This document shows, in pieces, positions 5,968 through 9,054 of a DNA stretch of 11,549 bases. A program made the position numbers and the translations under genes. The notes below the pieces were generated by a model. The model did not search any database. It saw nothing but the letters and a program-made list of their open reading frames with translations, and had not been told where the DNA came from. Position 1 is the first letter of the stretch; every line of letters begins with the position of its first letter. Origin of the DNA: an alpha proteobacterium 3107 (lineage in GTDB: Bacteria > Pseudomonadota > Alphaproteobacteria > Rhodobacterales > Rhodobacteraceae); the NCBI GenBank assembly GCA_001483205.1, contig JPPB01000267.1, positions 1-11,549 of the forward strand. Reading direction: 5' to 3'.

Positions 5968-6676
5968 AACGGTTCTTGAAACAATCGGGCTGACCATGCG
6001 ATTCGGCGGTGTCGTTGCCGCCGACAACGTGAATTTCAAACTCGGGGCCGGAGAGCTGAGATGTCTGATCGGTCCCAACGGGGCCGGAAAATCCACGTTC
6101 TTCAAATGCGTTACCGGCCTTCACCCCCCGACCGGGGGTCAGATATTCATGCGCGGCGAGGAAACCACCGGATGGCACCCCCATCAGATTGCCGCCCTTG
6201 GTGTCGGCATCAAGACACAGGTGCCCAACCTGCTCGACGGGTTGAGCGTGTTCGAGAACATATGGATGGCGGCGCGGCGGTTTCACCCGGCGGCAGAGGC
6301 GGCTGACCGGGCGCGGGACATCATCGACCGGCTGGCCCTGTCATCCATCGCCAAAGCTGCCCCCGGACAGCTTGCCCACGGAGAGCGTCAGCGCATTGAG
6401 CTGGGCCTGGTTGCCGTTGCCGACCCGTGGCTGGTTCTGCTGGACGAACCCGCGGCAGGCATGTCGGCAGAGGACATCGACCGGATGTCCGGGATCATCC
6501 GCGACATGACCCGAACCGCCGCCGTCATCATCGTCGAACATGACATGCAGTTCATCCGCTCTGTCGCATCAACCGTGACCGTGTTCCATCAGGGCGCGGT
6601 GCTGATGGAGGATCATGTGGATCGTGTCATGTCGGACTCGGTGGTGCGCAACGTCTATCTGGGCAAGACGGCATGA
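5960..6676 (+). CDS. ABC transporter ATP-binding protein, LivG/UrtD type
   Basis: A 238-residue cytoplasmic ATPase that pairs with the next ATPase to power the transporter. Walker A is GPNGAGKST (38-46), the ABC signature region is LAHGERQ (138-144), Walker B is LVLLDEP (158-164) and the switch histidine is H194 in VEHDM. The signature LAHGERQRIE followed by DEPAAGMS is nearer to the urea-type (UrtD: LSHGxxQ, DEPxAGM) than to classical LivG, which fits an amide or urea-like substrate. The open frame extends further upstream to 5804, but ATG 5960 gives the normal N-terminus; the upstream part lies inside the permease gene in another frame. The gene ends in ATGA, overlapping the next start by four bases. 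Length is normal. Confidence 0.92.
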   Translation: MPETVLETIGLTMRFGGVVAADNVNFKLGAGELRCLIGPNGAGKSTFFKCVTGLHPPTGGQIFMRGEETTGWHPHQIAALGVGIKTQVPNLLDGLSVFENIWMAARRFHPAAEAADRARDIIDRLALSSIAKAAPGQLAHGERQRIELGLVAVADPWLVLLDEPAAGMSAEDIDRMSGIIRDMTRTAAVIIVEHDMQFIRSVASTVTVFHQGAVLMEDHVDRVMSDSVVRNVYLGKTA

Positions 6677-9054
6677 CAACCGACGGGCGCAATATCCTGC
6701 TTGATGTGAAGGGGCTTTCCGGCGGTTATGGCAAGCTGCCCGTCCTGCACGGGGTCGAGTTTTCGGTTGCCGAGGATGAAGTGGTCGGCATTCTCGGCCA
6801 TAACGGGATGGGCAAATCCACCCTGCTCAAGACCCTGACCGGTTTTCTGCCCGCCACATCGGGAACGATCCGGTTTCGCTCGAACGATATGACCCGGATG
6901 TCACCCAACGGGCGGGCCGGGCTCGGGATCGGCTATGTTCCGCAGGGCAGGGGGATTTTCCCGCGACTGTCCGTGCGGGATAATCTTTTGTTTGCCTGGC
7001 ATGAGTATTCGGGCGGCTCCGAGGATGAAGTCATCGACGCCATTTTGAGGCACTTCCCCCGGCTGGTCCCGCTGCTTGATCGTGAAGGCGCAGCCCTTTC
7101 AGGCGGCGAGCAACAACTGTTGGCTCTGGCCAGATGTCTGGTCGGTGATCCGGAATGCCTGCTTCTGGATGAACCCACCGAAGGCATCCAGCCCTCGATC
7201 ATCGGGGAAATGGCTGAGACCCTGCTTCGGTTGCGCGAAACGCGGGGGCTGACAATCCTGCTCGTGGAACAGAATTTTGATTTCATCGCCGCGCTTTCGG
7301 ATCGGGTGCTGGTTCTCGAAAGGGGCCGGATCACCGGTGAGCTTTCCCGCGCCGATCTTGGTGACCGGTCAAAGGTTGATGCTTTCCTCGGGTTCGGTGC
7401 CACCGGCGCGACCAAACCCGCCGGGGCGACCGGGGGGTCGGACAAAACGCCGATACCGGCATATCCGGCCCCGGCCACCCCCGTGACACCCGTGCCCGCA
7501 CCCACGCCCCTGCCCTCGAACACTGAGAACACGGTGACATCCATGACCATCAAACGCCCCACCCTTGCCCGGATGCGCGAAATGGCCGCCCGCTTCGGCA
7601 TGAGCCTGTCAGATGAAGAGCTGATGGAGTTCCGGCAGGTCATCGAACCGACCATGCAGGCTTATGATCGTCTGGATGCCATGCCGGACAATCTGCCGGA
7701 GGTCAGATACCCGCGCAGTCCCGGCCACTTCCCCGATCCCTCCGAAAATGCCCTCAACGCCTGGTATGTGAAGACCGACATAAAGGGCGCGCCTGATGGC
7801 CCGCTGCGGGGCAAGCGCATTGCCCTCAAGGACACGATCTGCCTGGCGGGTGTGCCGATGATGAACGGCTCATCGGTGATGGAAGGCTATACGCCGGAGA
7901 TCGACGCAACCATTGTCACCAGAATGCTGGATGCCGGCGCGATCATCGCCGGCAAAGCCCATTGCGAGAATTTCTGCCTTTCGGGTGGTTCCCACACCAA
8001 CGCGAAGGGTCCGGTCCACAACCCCTATAAACGGGGATACATGGCAGGGGGATCTTCCAGCGGATCGGCAGCGCTGGTCGCGGCGGGCGAGGTCGATATG
8101 GCCATCGCCGGTGACCAGGGCGGGTCAATCCGCCTGCCCTCTTCGTGCTGCGGCACCTGTGGCATGAAGGCCACCCACGGGCTGGTGCCCTATACGGGCG
8201 CGATGCCGATTGAAATGACGATTGATCACCTGGGGCCGGTGACGGCCAATGTTGCCGACAATGCCCTGCTGCTGGAGGTTCTGGCAGGCGAGGACGGCCT
8301 TGATCCGCGTCAGTGCAAACCGACGACATATCGCTATACAGAGGCCATCGGGCGCGGTGTTCAGGGGATGCGAATCGGCATCCTGAAAGAGGGCTTTGCC
8401 CATGAAAACAGCGAAGAGGATGTCAGCGGGAAGGTGATGGCCGCGGCTGAACGGTTGCGCGAGCTTGGCGCGCAGGTTAGGGATGTCTCGATCCCCGAGC
8501 ATTATGTGGCAGGGGATGCTTGGGGCGCGATTGCCAATGAGGGCCTTGTGGACGGCATGATGTGGGGAAACTCGGCGGGCAGCAACCACCGGGGCCTGTT
8601 CCTGCTGTCGATGATTGACCACATGGCCCAATGGCGGAACCGGGCGGATGAGCTCAGCCACTCCCTGAAGGCCTGCATGTTCATCGGCGAGCACTTTCAA
8701 ACCCAATATCGGGGCCGCTTCTACGGCAAGGCGCAGAACATCATGCGCAAATGCAATGCGCGTTATCTGGAGGCGTTCAGGAGCTTTGATTTGCTGCTCA
8801 TGCCGACCATTCCGCACAAACCGCAGGAAATACCGCCGCCGGATTGCCCGATCAGCCTCTATGTTCAGCGCGCGTTCGAGATGATCGGCAACACCGCGCC
8901 GTTCAATGGCGGGCTTCCGGCGATGAGCATTCCCTGCGGGCTGAGCGAAGGGCTGCCCGTCGGAATGCAACTGGTCGGTGCCCCCTACAGCGAAATGAAA
9001 ATTTATCAGGCCGCTCACGCCTTTGAGCAAAGCGGCGACTGGCGGACCATGTGA
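6673..9054 (+). CDS. Fusion protein: LivF/UrtE-type ABC ATPase + amidase-signature amidase
   Basis: A 793-residue two-domain protein. Residues 1-240 are a complete LivF-type ATPase: Walker A GHNGMGKST (42-50), Q-loop Q91, signature LSGGEQQ (142-148), Walker B LLLDEP (163-168), and VEQN (198-201), where LivF proteins normally carry Q instead of the switch H. Residues 241-290 are a Pro/Ala/Thr/Gly-rich linker. Residues 291-793 (503 aa) form an amidase-signature enzyme like the enantioselective amidases of Rhodococcus nitrile gene clusters (about 521 aa). Lys386 (ALKD), cis-Ser461 (GGSSSGS) and Ser485 (DQGGSIR) match the Lys96/Ser171/Ser195 triad of the Rhodococcus N-771 enzyme in both motif and exact spacing. 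The predicted reaction is amide + water to carboxylate + ammonia at the inner face of the membrane. No stop or frame break is visible between domains. It is coupled to the previous gene (ATGA overlap) and followed after 10 bases by an acyl-CoA synthetase. Domain calls are firm; the exact amide is unknown. Confidence 0.92.
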   Translation: MTTDGRNILLDVKGLSGGYGKLPVLHGVEFSVAEDEVVGILGHNGMGKSTLLKTLTGFLPATSGTIRFRSNDMTRMSPNGRAGLGIGYVPQGRGIFPRLSVRDNLLFAWHEYSGGSEDEVIDAILRHFPRLVPLLDREGAALSGGEQQLLALARCLVGDPECLLLDEPTEGIQPSIIGEMAETLLRLRETRGLTILLVEQNFDFIAALSDRVLVLERGRITGELSRADLGDRSKVDAFLGFGATGATKPAGATGGSDKTPIPAYPAPATPVTPVPAPTPLPSNTENTVTSMTIKRPTLARMREMAARFGMSLSDEELMEFRQVIEPTMQAYDRLDAMPDNLPEVRYPRSPGHFPDPSENALNAWYVKTDIKGAPDGPLRGKRIALKDTICLAGVPMMNGSSVMEGYTPEIDATIVTRMLDAGAIIAGKAHCENFCLSGGSHTNAKGPVHNPYKRGYMAGGSSSGSAALVAAGEVDMAIAGDQGGSIRLPSSCCGTCGMKATHGLVPYTGAMPIEMTIDHLGPVTANVADNALLLEVLAGEDGLDPRQCKPTTYRYTEAIGRGVQGMRIGILKEGFAHENSEEDVSGKVMAAAERLRELGAQVRDVSIPEHYVAGDAWGAIANEGLVDGMMWGNSAGSNHRGLFLLSMIDHMAQWRNRADELSHSLKACMFIGEHFQTQYRGRFYGKAQNIMRKCNARYLEAFRSFDLLLMPTIPHKPQEIPPPDCPISLYVQRAFEMIGNTAPFNGGLPAMSIPCGLSEGLPVGMQLVGAPYSEMKIYQAAHAFEQSGDWRTM
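7393..7542 (+). other. Interdomain linker of the ATPase-amidase fusion
   Basis: These 150 bases encode residues 241-290. The segment is low-complexity: Gly/Ala/Thr first (GATGATKPAGATGG), then alternating Pro with Ala, Thr and Val (PATPVTPVPAPTPLP). It contains no stop in frame, and most third positions are G or C as in the flanking domains. An ATG follows at 7543 at the natural amidase N-terminus but without a Shine-Dalgarno sequence. Such Pro/Ala linkers are typical of flexible, extended joins between domains. Confidence 0.75.

Follow-up and report, generated by a model that had tools for sequence, protein, structure and literature searches.

An ATPase-amidase fusion gene of a bacterial importer operon that probably encodes two nested proteins

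Importers of the UrtABCDE/LivFGHMJ type, which belong to the HAAT family, are built from a binding protein, two permeases and two ATPases. FmdDEF, which we take to be a HAAT-family importer of short-chain amides, is also among the closest known systems. For the enzyme considered here, the nearest solved structure is an amidase of Rhodococcus (PDB 3A1I and 3A1K), presumably of strain N-771, whose chain of 521 residues carries no ATPase. The present study deals with a locus of alpha proteobacterium 3107 (Rhodobacteraceae) in which a LivF/UrtE-type ATPase and an amidase-signature enzyme are joined in a single open reading frame, at positions 6673-9054 of a window of 11,549 nucleotides. The window is the whole stretch of DNA that was analysed; it is one contig (JPPB01000267.1) of a draft genome with 337 contigs. 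On the basis of its sequence, the fused gene probably makes a predicted 85 kDa ATPase-amidase plus a 55 kDa free amidase translated from an internal start.

The locus shares with the UrtABCDE/LivFGHMJ importers the complete set of components named above. For both permeases, as for the LivG-type ATPase, the best scores came from Urt models; the ATPase half of the fusion obtained a higher score with the UrtE model than with that of LivF. The locus differs from these systems in that its scores stay under the curated cut-offs and in that the LivF-type subunit carries an enzyme. Still nearer are the split relatives (e.g. L049, L052 and L190-L197), which have the same importer order and homologous parts in separate frames. 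As for the internal start, passages of PMC11899642 and of PMC10327210 report, respectively, Cas11b within cas8b and RpnS within rpn as C-terminal proteins from an internal in-frame start, shown by experiment. In both cases the second protein works with or against the long form, as predicted for the fusion; Cas11b and RpnS are however CRISPR or nuclease proteins, whereas here a transporter subunit is fused to an enzyme and the second protein is a prediction from sequence. In the open-access literature (subscription journals were mostly outside the scope) no description of the fusion, of the internal start or of the link to a flotillin described below was recognised. The amidase treated in passages of PMC2739507 is a peptidoglycan amidase and is unrelated. 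The parts are of known kinds and their combination is new.

The fused gene and its relatives

The features of the fused gene are the following.

6673-9054, + strand: fused gene, LivF/UrtE-type ABC ATPase, linker and amidase-signature enzyme, 793 residues, 85.3 kDa (open reading frame, Pfam, homologues)
6673-7392, + strand: ATPase domain, residues 1-240 (Pfam, alignment)
7393-7542, + strand: linker, residues 241-290 (composition, comparison of 45 fused loci)
7533-7537, + strand: internal Shine-Dalgarno-like GGTGA within the linker, 5 nucleotides ahead of the internal start (pairing, randomisation)
7543-7545, + strand: internal start codon ATG, Met291 (codon conservation in fused loci)
7543-9054, + strand: amidase, predicted second product if translated alone, 503 residues, 54.6 kDa (NF005565, catalytic triad)

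The frame starts with ATG and runs without internal stop. An earlier reading, made from the sequence only, had described a full LivF/UrtE-type ATPase, a 50-residue linker and a full amidase in one protein of about 85 kDa, and this description agrees with the open reading frame, with the calculated mass and with a Pfam scan, in which ABC_tran covered residues 25-169 (E 9.8e-32) and Amidase residues 363-775 (E 1.5e-86). The ATPase motifs were retrieved as well: GHNGMGK, LSGGEQQ and LLLDEPTEG, which we take to be the Walker A, signature and Walker B motifs of an ABC ATPase, were unchanged in all 48 aligned fused proteins, a subset of the best 120 of 7269 database matches. Lys386, Ser461 and Ser485 (fusion numbering), presumably the Ser-cisSer-Lys catalytic triad of amidase-signature enzymes, were equally invariant (48/48) and match the amidase chain 3A1K by position. 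Residues 300-786 align with the Rhodococcus amidase (E about 1e-134) with equal triad spacing.

The C-terminal part scored 291.7 bits with PF01425 (cut-off 27) and 745 bits with NF005565 (cut-off 545), position 1 of the latter model falling on residue 291, and it is a predicted amidase of the amidase signature family. With the GatA equivalog TIGR00132 it stayed below the cut-off (268.8 bits vs 481.1). The ATPase half was likewise below the UrtE equivalog TIGR03410 (248.1 bits vs 285.8) and the LivF equivalog NF008626 (144.5 bits vs 441); it is predicted to be UrtE-like in its working, though it is not classed as UrtE. A HAAT-type importer set (partner ATPase, two permeases and binding protein) was present in the operon of 34/34 fused loci.

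A database check of the domain order revealed both Pfam domains in one protein of 782-811 residues in 120/120 of the best of the 7269 matches. At 45 of 166 fetched loci, picked through searches with the fusion protein, both domains lay in a single frame as called by BLAST. The full fusion was found in 11/385 genomes of the class and in 11/292 genomes of the order, the window's own being counted in each; in a twelfth genome of the class (G185) the fusion is interrupted by the contig end. A phylum-wide sample contained it solely in the window's own genome (1/349), and the samples of genomes around other holders gave 5/11, 4/61, 6/9, 5/25, 2/28 and 1/14, full frames only. According to the record labels, the holders include metagenome-assembled genomes of Cohaesibacteraceae, Pseudophaeobacter, Roseicyclus, Sneathiellales, Acidiferrobacteraceae and Immundisolibacterales; among isolates they include Aquibium sp. 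ELW1220 and Salinarimonas rosea. Such a distribution is patchy, as that of an accessory operon would be. Fused members reach down to 56-58% identity with the window protein over almost the full length. Where the source gives a name, they are mostly annotated 'amidase', and the annotation of the clade thereby hides the subunit of a transporter and, probably, a further product.

The history of the fusion was followed on two quick trees, both with Shimodaira-Hasegawa-like approximate likelihood ratio (SH-aLRT) support only, from which the contig-end partial L047 had been dropped by the length filter. On the ATPase tree, 44 fused sequences were parted from 30 split-adjacent ones by 1 change (support 93). 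The amidase tree grouped the 44 fused sequences in a single clade of 47 (support 96). There, 4 changes of the fused label are required, as three sequences not classed as fused sit inside the clade, namely L020 and L165, which are truncated by contig ends, and L139. Split relatives, in which a stop is followed by a separate amidase start, fall outside the fused group; as the sequence-only reading had expected of the usual arrangement, these more distant relatives keep both genes side by side. No relative was found that combines identical flanks with a linker interrupted by a stop, which would have spoken against a fusion, the fused clade consisting of 44 fused and 3 unjudgeable sequences; the 14 split relatives have other flanks and leave the claim of a fusion standing. 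These trees are most simply explained by an old fusion of single origin. Several independent fusions are unsupported, the ATPase tree needing 1 change. A recent fusion with leftover start signals was rejected because synonymous sites of the linker have diverged (pS up to 0.81 even in close pairs) yet the signal persists, and because members at 56-58% identity exist.

Signals for internal initiation

Codon 291, at 7543 in the window, reads ATG in all but one of the 45 fused loci (44/45), the exception having GTG, and residue 291 is Met in 48/48 aligned fused proteins and in 120/120 of the best of the 7269 matches. The linker ahead of it has neither a constant sequence nor a constant length (37-101 residues across the 45 fused loci, rich in Ala, Pro, Ser and Thr; Pro, Ala, Thr and Gly are abundant in that of the window). 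The Shine-Dalgarno-like sequence in front of Met291 is spelled by different residues in different sub-clades.

The strength of this signal was assessed by synonymous codon randomisation in 32 non-redundant fused loci (less than 70% identity in the 45 bases ahead of the ATG). The mean best pairing with the anti-Shine-Dalgarno sequence was -6.86 kcal/mol, against -4.39 (standard deviation 0.40) in the randomised versions, and 0/2000 of these were as strong; the 18 near-clade and the 14 far-clade loci, tested separately, each gave 0/2000. At 973 other in-frame ATGs of the fused genes, used as control, the signal was absent (-3.65 vs -3.84 randomised). For comparison, the mean pairing was -8.09 at 46 non-redundant starts of separate amidases, taken with or without an adjacent ATPase gene and retained only with a start codon at the expected place, and -5.53 at the ATPase starts, located approximately, in 27 of the 32 fused loci. 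Strong pairing was confined to 9-mers starting about 10-17 nucleotides upstream of the internal ATG. A Shine-Dalgarno core motif at the right spacing was detected in 25/32 loci, against 1/32, 2/32 and 0/32 in control windows. Purines were conserved at the wobble positions -10 and -7 (1.19 and 0.80 bits), and the wobble positions -13 to -28 were nearly unconserved (0.01-0.29 bits).

The messenger RNA around the internal start is also open. Its fold was -4.9 vs -10.5 at control ATGs and -5.22 vs -8.19 in synonymous versions, 0/200 of which were as open; the starts of 56 separate amidases fold at -6.04, close to the -5.22 of the internal site. For the window itself, the internal site has a pairing of -7.4 and a fold of -3.7, and the fusion's own start has -2.4 and -9.4. 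The UrtD/LivG-type gene and the fused gene share 4 nucleotides (ATGA) at the fusion start, and initiation there may depend on coupling to the LivG-type gene.

The family combines what is expected of a gene within a gene, namely a conserved in-frame start codon and a Shine-Dalgarno sequence beyond the demand of the protein sequence. We consider, with a probability of roughly 0.75, that an old fusion encodes two nested proteins, the ATPase-amidase of an amide importer and a free amidase. Of the single 85 kDa product foreseen by the sequence-only reading, the long form is upheld by the lack of a stop between the halves, and its standing as sole product is not, the internal start indicating in addition a free amidase of 54.6 kDa.

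Companion genes and a proposed mechanism

In the window, the genes form a run on the + strand around the fused gene, as listed below.

3-974, + strand: second urea/amide-family binding protein, partial at the window's left end (open reading frame, Pfam)
1104-2723, + strand: flotillin-like (SPFH) membrane protein, TTG start (Pfam)
2778-3998, + strand: periplasmic substrate-binding protein, urea/amide family (Peripla_BP_5/6), with a leader resembling twin-arginine (Tat) leaders by eye (Pfam, NCBIfam)
4064-4930, + strand: permease 1, UrtB/LivH type (Pfam, NCBIfam)
4930-5967, + strand: permease 2, UrtC/LivM type (open reading frame, Pfam, NCBIfam; start chosen by eye)
5960-6676, + strand: second ATPase, UrtD/LivG type (open reading frame, model scores; start chosen by eye)
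9065-10831, + strand: acyl-coenzyme A (acyl-CoA) ligase, AMP-binding (open reading frame, Pfam; start chosen by eye)
10877-11549, + strand: acyl-CoA dehydrogenase, partial at the window's right end (open reading frame, Pfam)

The search for RNA families gave no match at the gathering threshold within the window. The flotillin-like gene and the acyl-CoA ligase, like the internal start at 7543, go beyond what the sequence-only reading had pointed out.

Operons with long flanks were compared in 34 fused loci (the window included) and 14 split loci. A flotillin-like gene accompanied the fusion in 34/34 fused loci and was found in 0/14 split ones; an acyl-CoA ligase followed the amidase at a distance of at most about 1 kb in 33/34 fused loci (it was not found in L175), again against 0/14. 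As all fused loci belong to a single group, the link may reflect one joint acquisition, and it counts for little more than one event. A second binding protein was present upstream of the flotillin-like gene in 25/34 fused loci. The acyl-CoA dehydrogenase, detected in 2/34 at the threshold used, is not a constant part of the operon. In all 34 fused loci the fusion was the sole LivF-type ATPase found in the operon, and for this reason the importer presumably uses the fused ATPase. Two different amidases of this family were observed near the importer in the split loci L048, L062, L029, L191 and L196.

The flotillin-like protein scored over the cut-off with Band_7 (63.1 bits) and Flot (99.3 bits) and far below that of the FloT equivalog NF058507 (27.8 bits vs 700). 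When it was searched for over the class, the 12 best of the 385 genomes were the 11 genomes with the full fusion and G185. It may be the membrane organiser of the fusion; according to passages of PMC8656257, SPFH proteins are thought to aid the assembly of membrane protein clusters, a role that is debated. Both binding proteins fall in the urea/amide family. Inspection by eye of seven longer relatives of the second one revealed no evident signal peptide, and this protein may be a cytoplasmic amide sensor comparable to AmiC. Small frames adjoining it in L039, L041 and L177 had no Pfam match, and no antiterminator partner was recognised among them.

Taken by its gene content, the operon suggests import of an amide, its hydrolysis and activation of the resulting acid with CoA. 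In the proposed mechanism, ribosomes starting at 6673 would read through the linker and produce the 85 kDa ATPase-amidase; as there is no stop between the halves, the ATPase would exist only in fused form unless it is cut later. This form would fill the place of the LivF-type ATPase in a HAAT-family importer, together with the binding protein, the two permeases and the LivG-type partner. Ribosomes starting at the internal site (GGTGA and ATG 7543) would produce the 55 kDa free amidase. The importer would bring in an organic amide, tethered and free amidase would hydrolyse it, releasing ammonia and an acid that the acyl-CoA ligase would trap as CoA thioester, and the flotillin-like membrane protein may organise the assembly. 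A coupling of amide import to hydrolysis, which the sequence-only reading had put forward, is a plausible hypothesis; its further ideas, that the amidase would sit at the mouth of the importer and that back-diffusion would be prevented, are hypothetical. Amidases of this kind are presumably dimers. As the importer should hold only one fused ATPase, the tethered amidase may find its partner for a dimer in the free form. The passages of PMC6801914 are silent on amidase dimers.

Alternative readings and parallel operons

Different explanations can be considered for the conserved Met291 and the sequence in front of it. Shine-Dalgarno-like codon runs can pause ribosomes, although this is disputed, and the gene could make the 85 kDa product only, the conserved Met and the signal then serving, for example, a slowing of the ribosome that lets the ATPase fold ahead of the amidase, or else the structure of the amidase N-terminus. 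Met291 indeed borders on the amidase domain, whose start is conserved, and the residues ahead of it are conserved too (Val in 112/120 and Thr in 106/120 of the best of the 7269 matches, which are mostly close relatives). A pause signal, however, needs no start codon at a fixed distance, yet 45/45 loci have ATG or GTG there; the spacing is that of a true start, the sole codon change goes to another start codon, the far clade retains the signal with different residues and the mRNA is open around the site. We regard a single product as unlikely. That the fusion is made and then cut in the linker by a protease, ATPase and amidase acting separately, would fit the variability of the linker and its composition, which is typical of disorder (disorder is itself a prediction). 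This explanation appears still less probable to us. It would leave the internal ribosome-binding site unexplained, and the fused state of all readable members of the clade suggests, with the selection on the linker, that the join matters: over 14 close pairs, some with a common member, the nonsynonymous difference (pN) was 0.24 and the synonymous one (pS) 0.44, values that point to a translated linker under purifying selection, and because of this selection the full-length protein would matter. An artefact of assembly or annotation joining two genes, which a draft genome of 337 contigs might make one suspect, is ruled out for practical purposes by the same fusion in many independent genomes and metagenomes. 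A more serious rival keeps the gene structure and changes the substrate, the amidase acting for example on an internal compound and the tether regulating the importer. Amidase-signature enzymes are very diverse in substrate, which is in its favour, but the binding proteins of the urea/amide family, the Rhodococcus amidase as nearest solved structure and the acyl-CoA ligase that follows agree with an imported amide converted to acyl-CoA, and we hold the change of substrate for rather doubtful.

Several observations weigh against two nested proteins of an amide importer. Binding protein, permeases and ATPases all remain under the curated cut-offs for urea and branched-chain transporters, an amide being the substrate that we infer. 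The wobble positions -4 and -1, which lie outside the core, are partly conserved (0.46 and 1.05 bits), and 7/32 loci show no Shine-Dalgarno core with a strict pattern. The open fold is not confined to the internal start: the segment 30 nucleotides downstream folds less than 200/200 synonymous versions, and the segments 60 and 30 nucleotides upstream fold less than 199/200 and 189/200. With a shorter anti-Shine-Dalgarno sequence, the synonymous test on the window alone gave p 0.08, so that the case for the internal start rests on the family. Inside the fused clade, L139 has linker and amidase with no ATPase within 1.4 kb upstream, where a GC-rich run is found instead; it looks like a faulty join. 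The AlphaFold model, built with 48 similar sequences, was poor, with a mean predicted local distance difference test (pLDDT) score of 53; it is silent on the arrangement of the domains and was not used.

If both products are made, a single gene would set the balance between importer-fixed and free enzyme, and the stoichiometry problem of a plain fusion would be solved. The locus offers a natural and genetically simple test case for the physical coupling of uptake and catabolism in bacteria, and it connects a bacterial flotillin with one particular import operon. A broader and more tentative idea, which we put below even odds, is that of a membrane station for uptake and catabolism, in which the LivF-borne amidase would dock free amidase as a dimer, with the ligase and a dedicated flotillin, as one case of a wider class that would include flotillin operons with an extended LivF.

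Operons of this last kind were encountered in the flotillin search over the class, where the next three matches came from genomes without the fusion (G194, G001 and G287). In G194 and G001, the flotillin gene has HAAT-type importer genes nearby, together with those of an aldehyde dehydrogenase and a short-chain dehydrogenase; LivF is there extended at its C-terminus by about 160 residues that contain no Pfam domain. The G287 contig, of 5958 bases, carries a long LivF, an aldehyde dehydrogenase, a short-chain dehydrogenase and flotillin-like genes. A second importer operon of this make-up, with a related flotillin, both dehydrogenases and the LivF extension of about 160 residues, was located at L199 (7154-16129, minus strand), at L200 (7749-13614, minus strand) and at L198; the extensions of L199 and L200 terminate in similar basic motifs.

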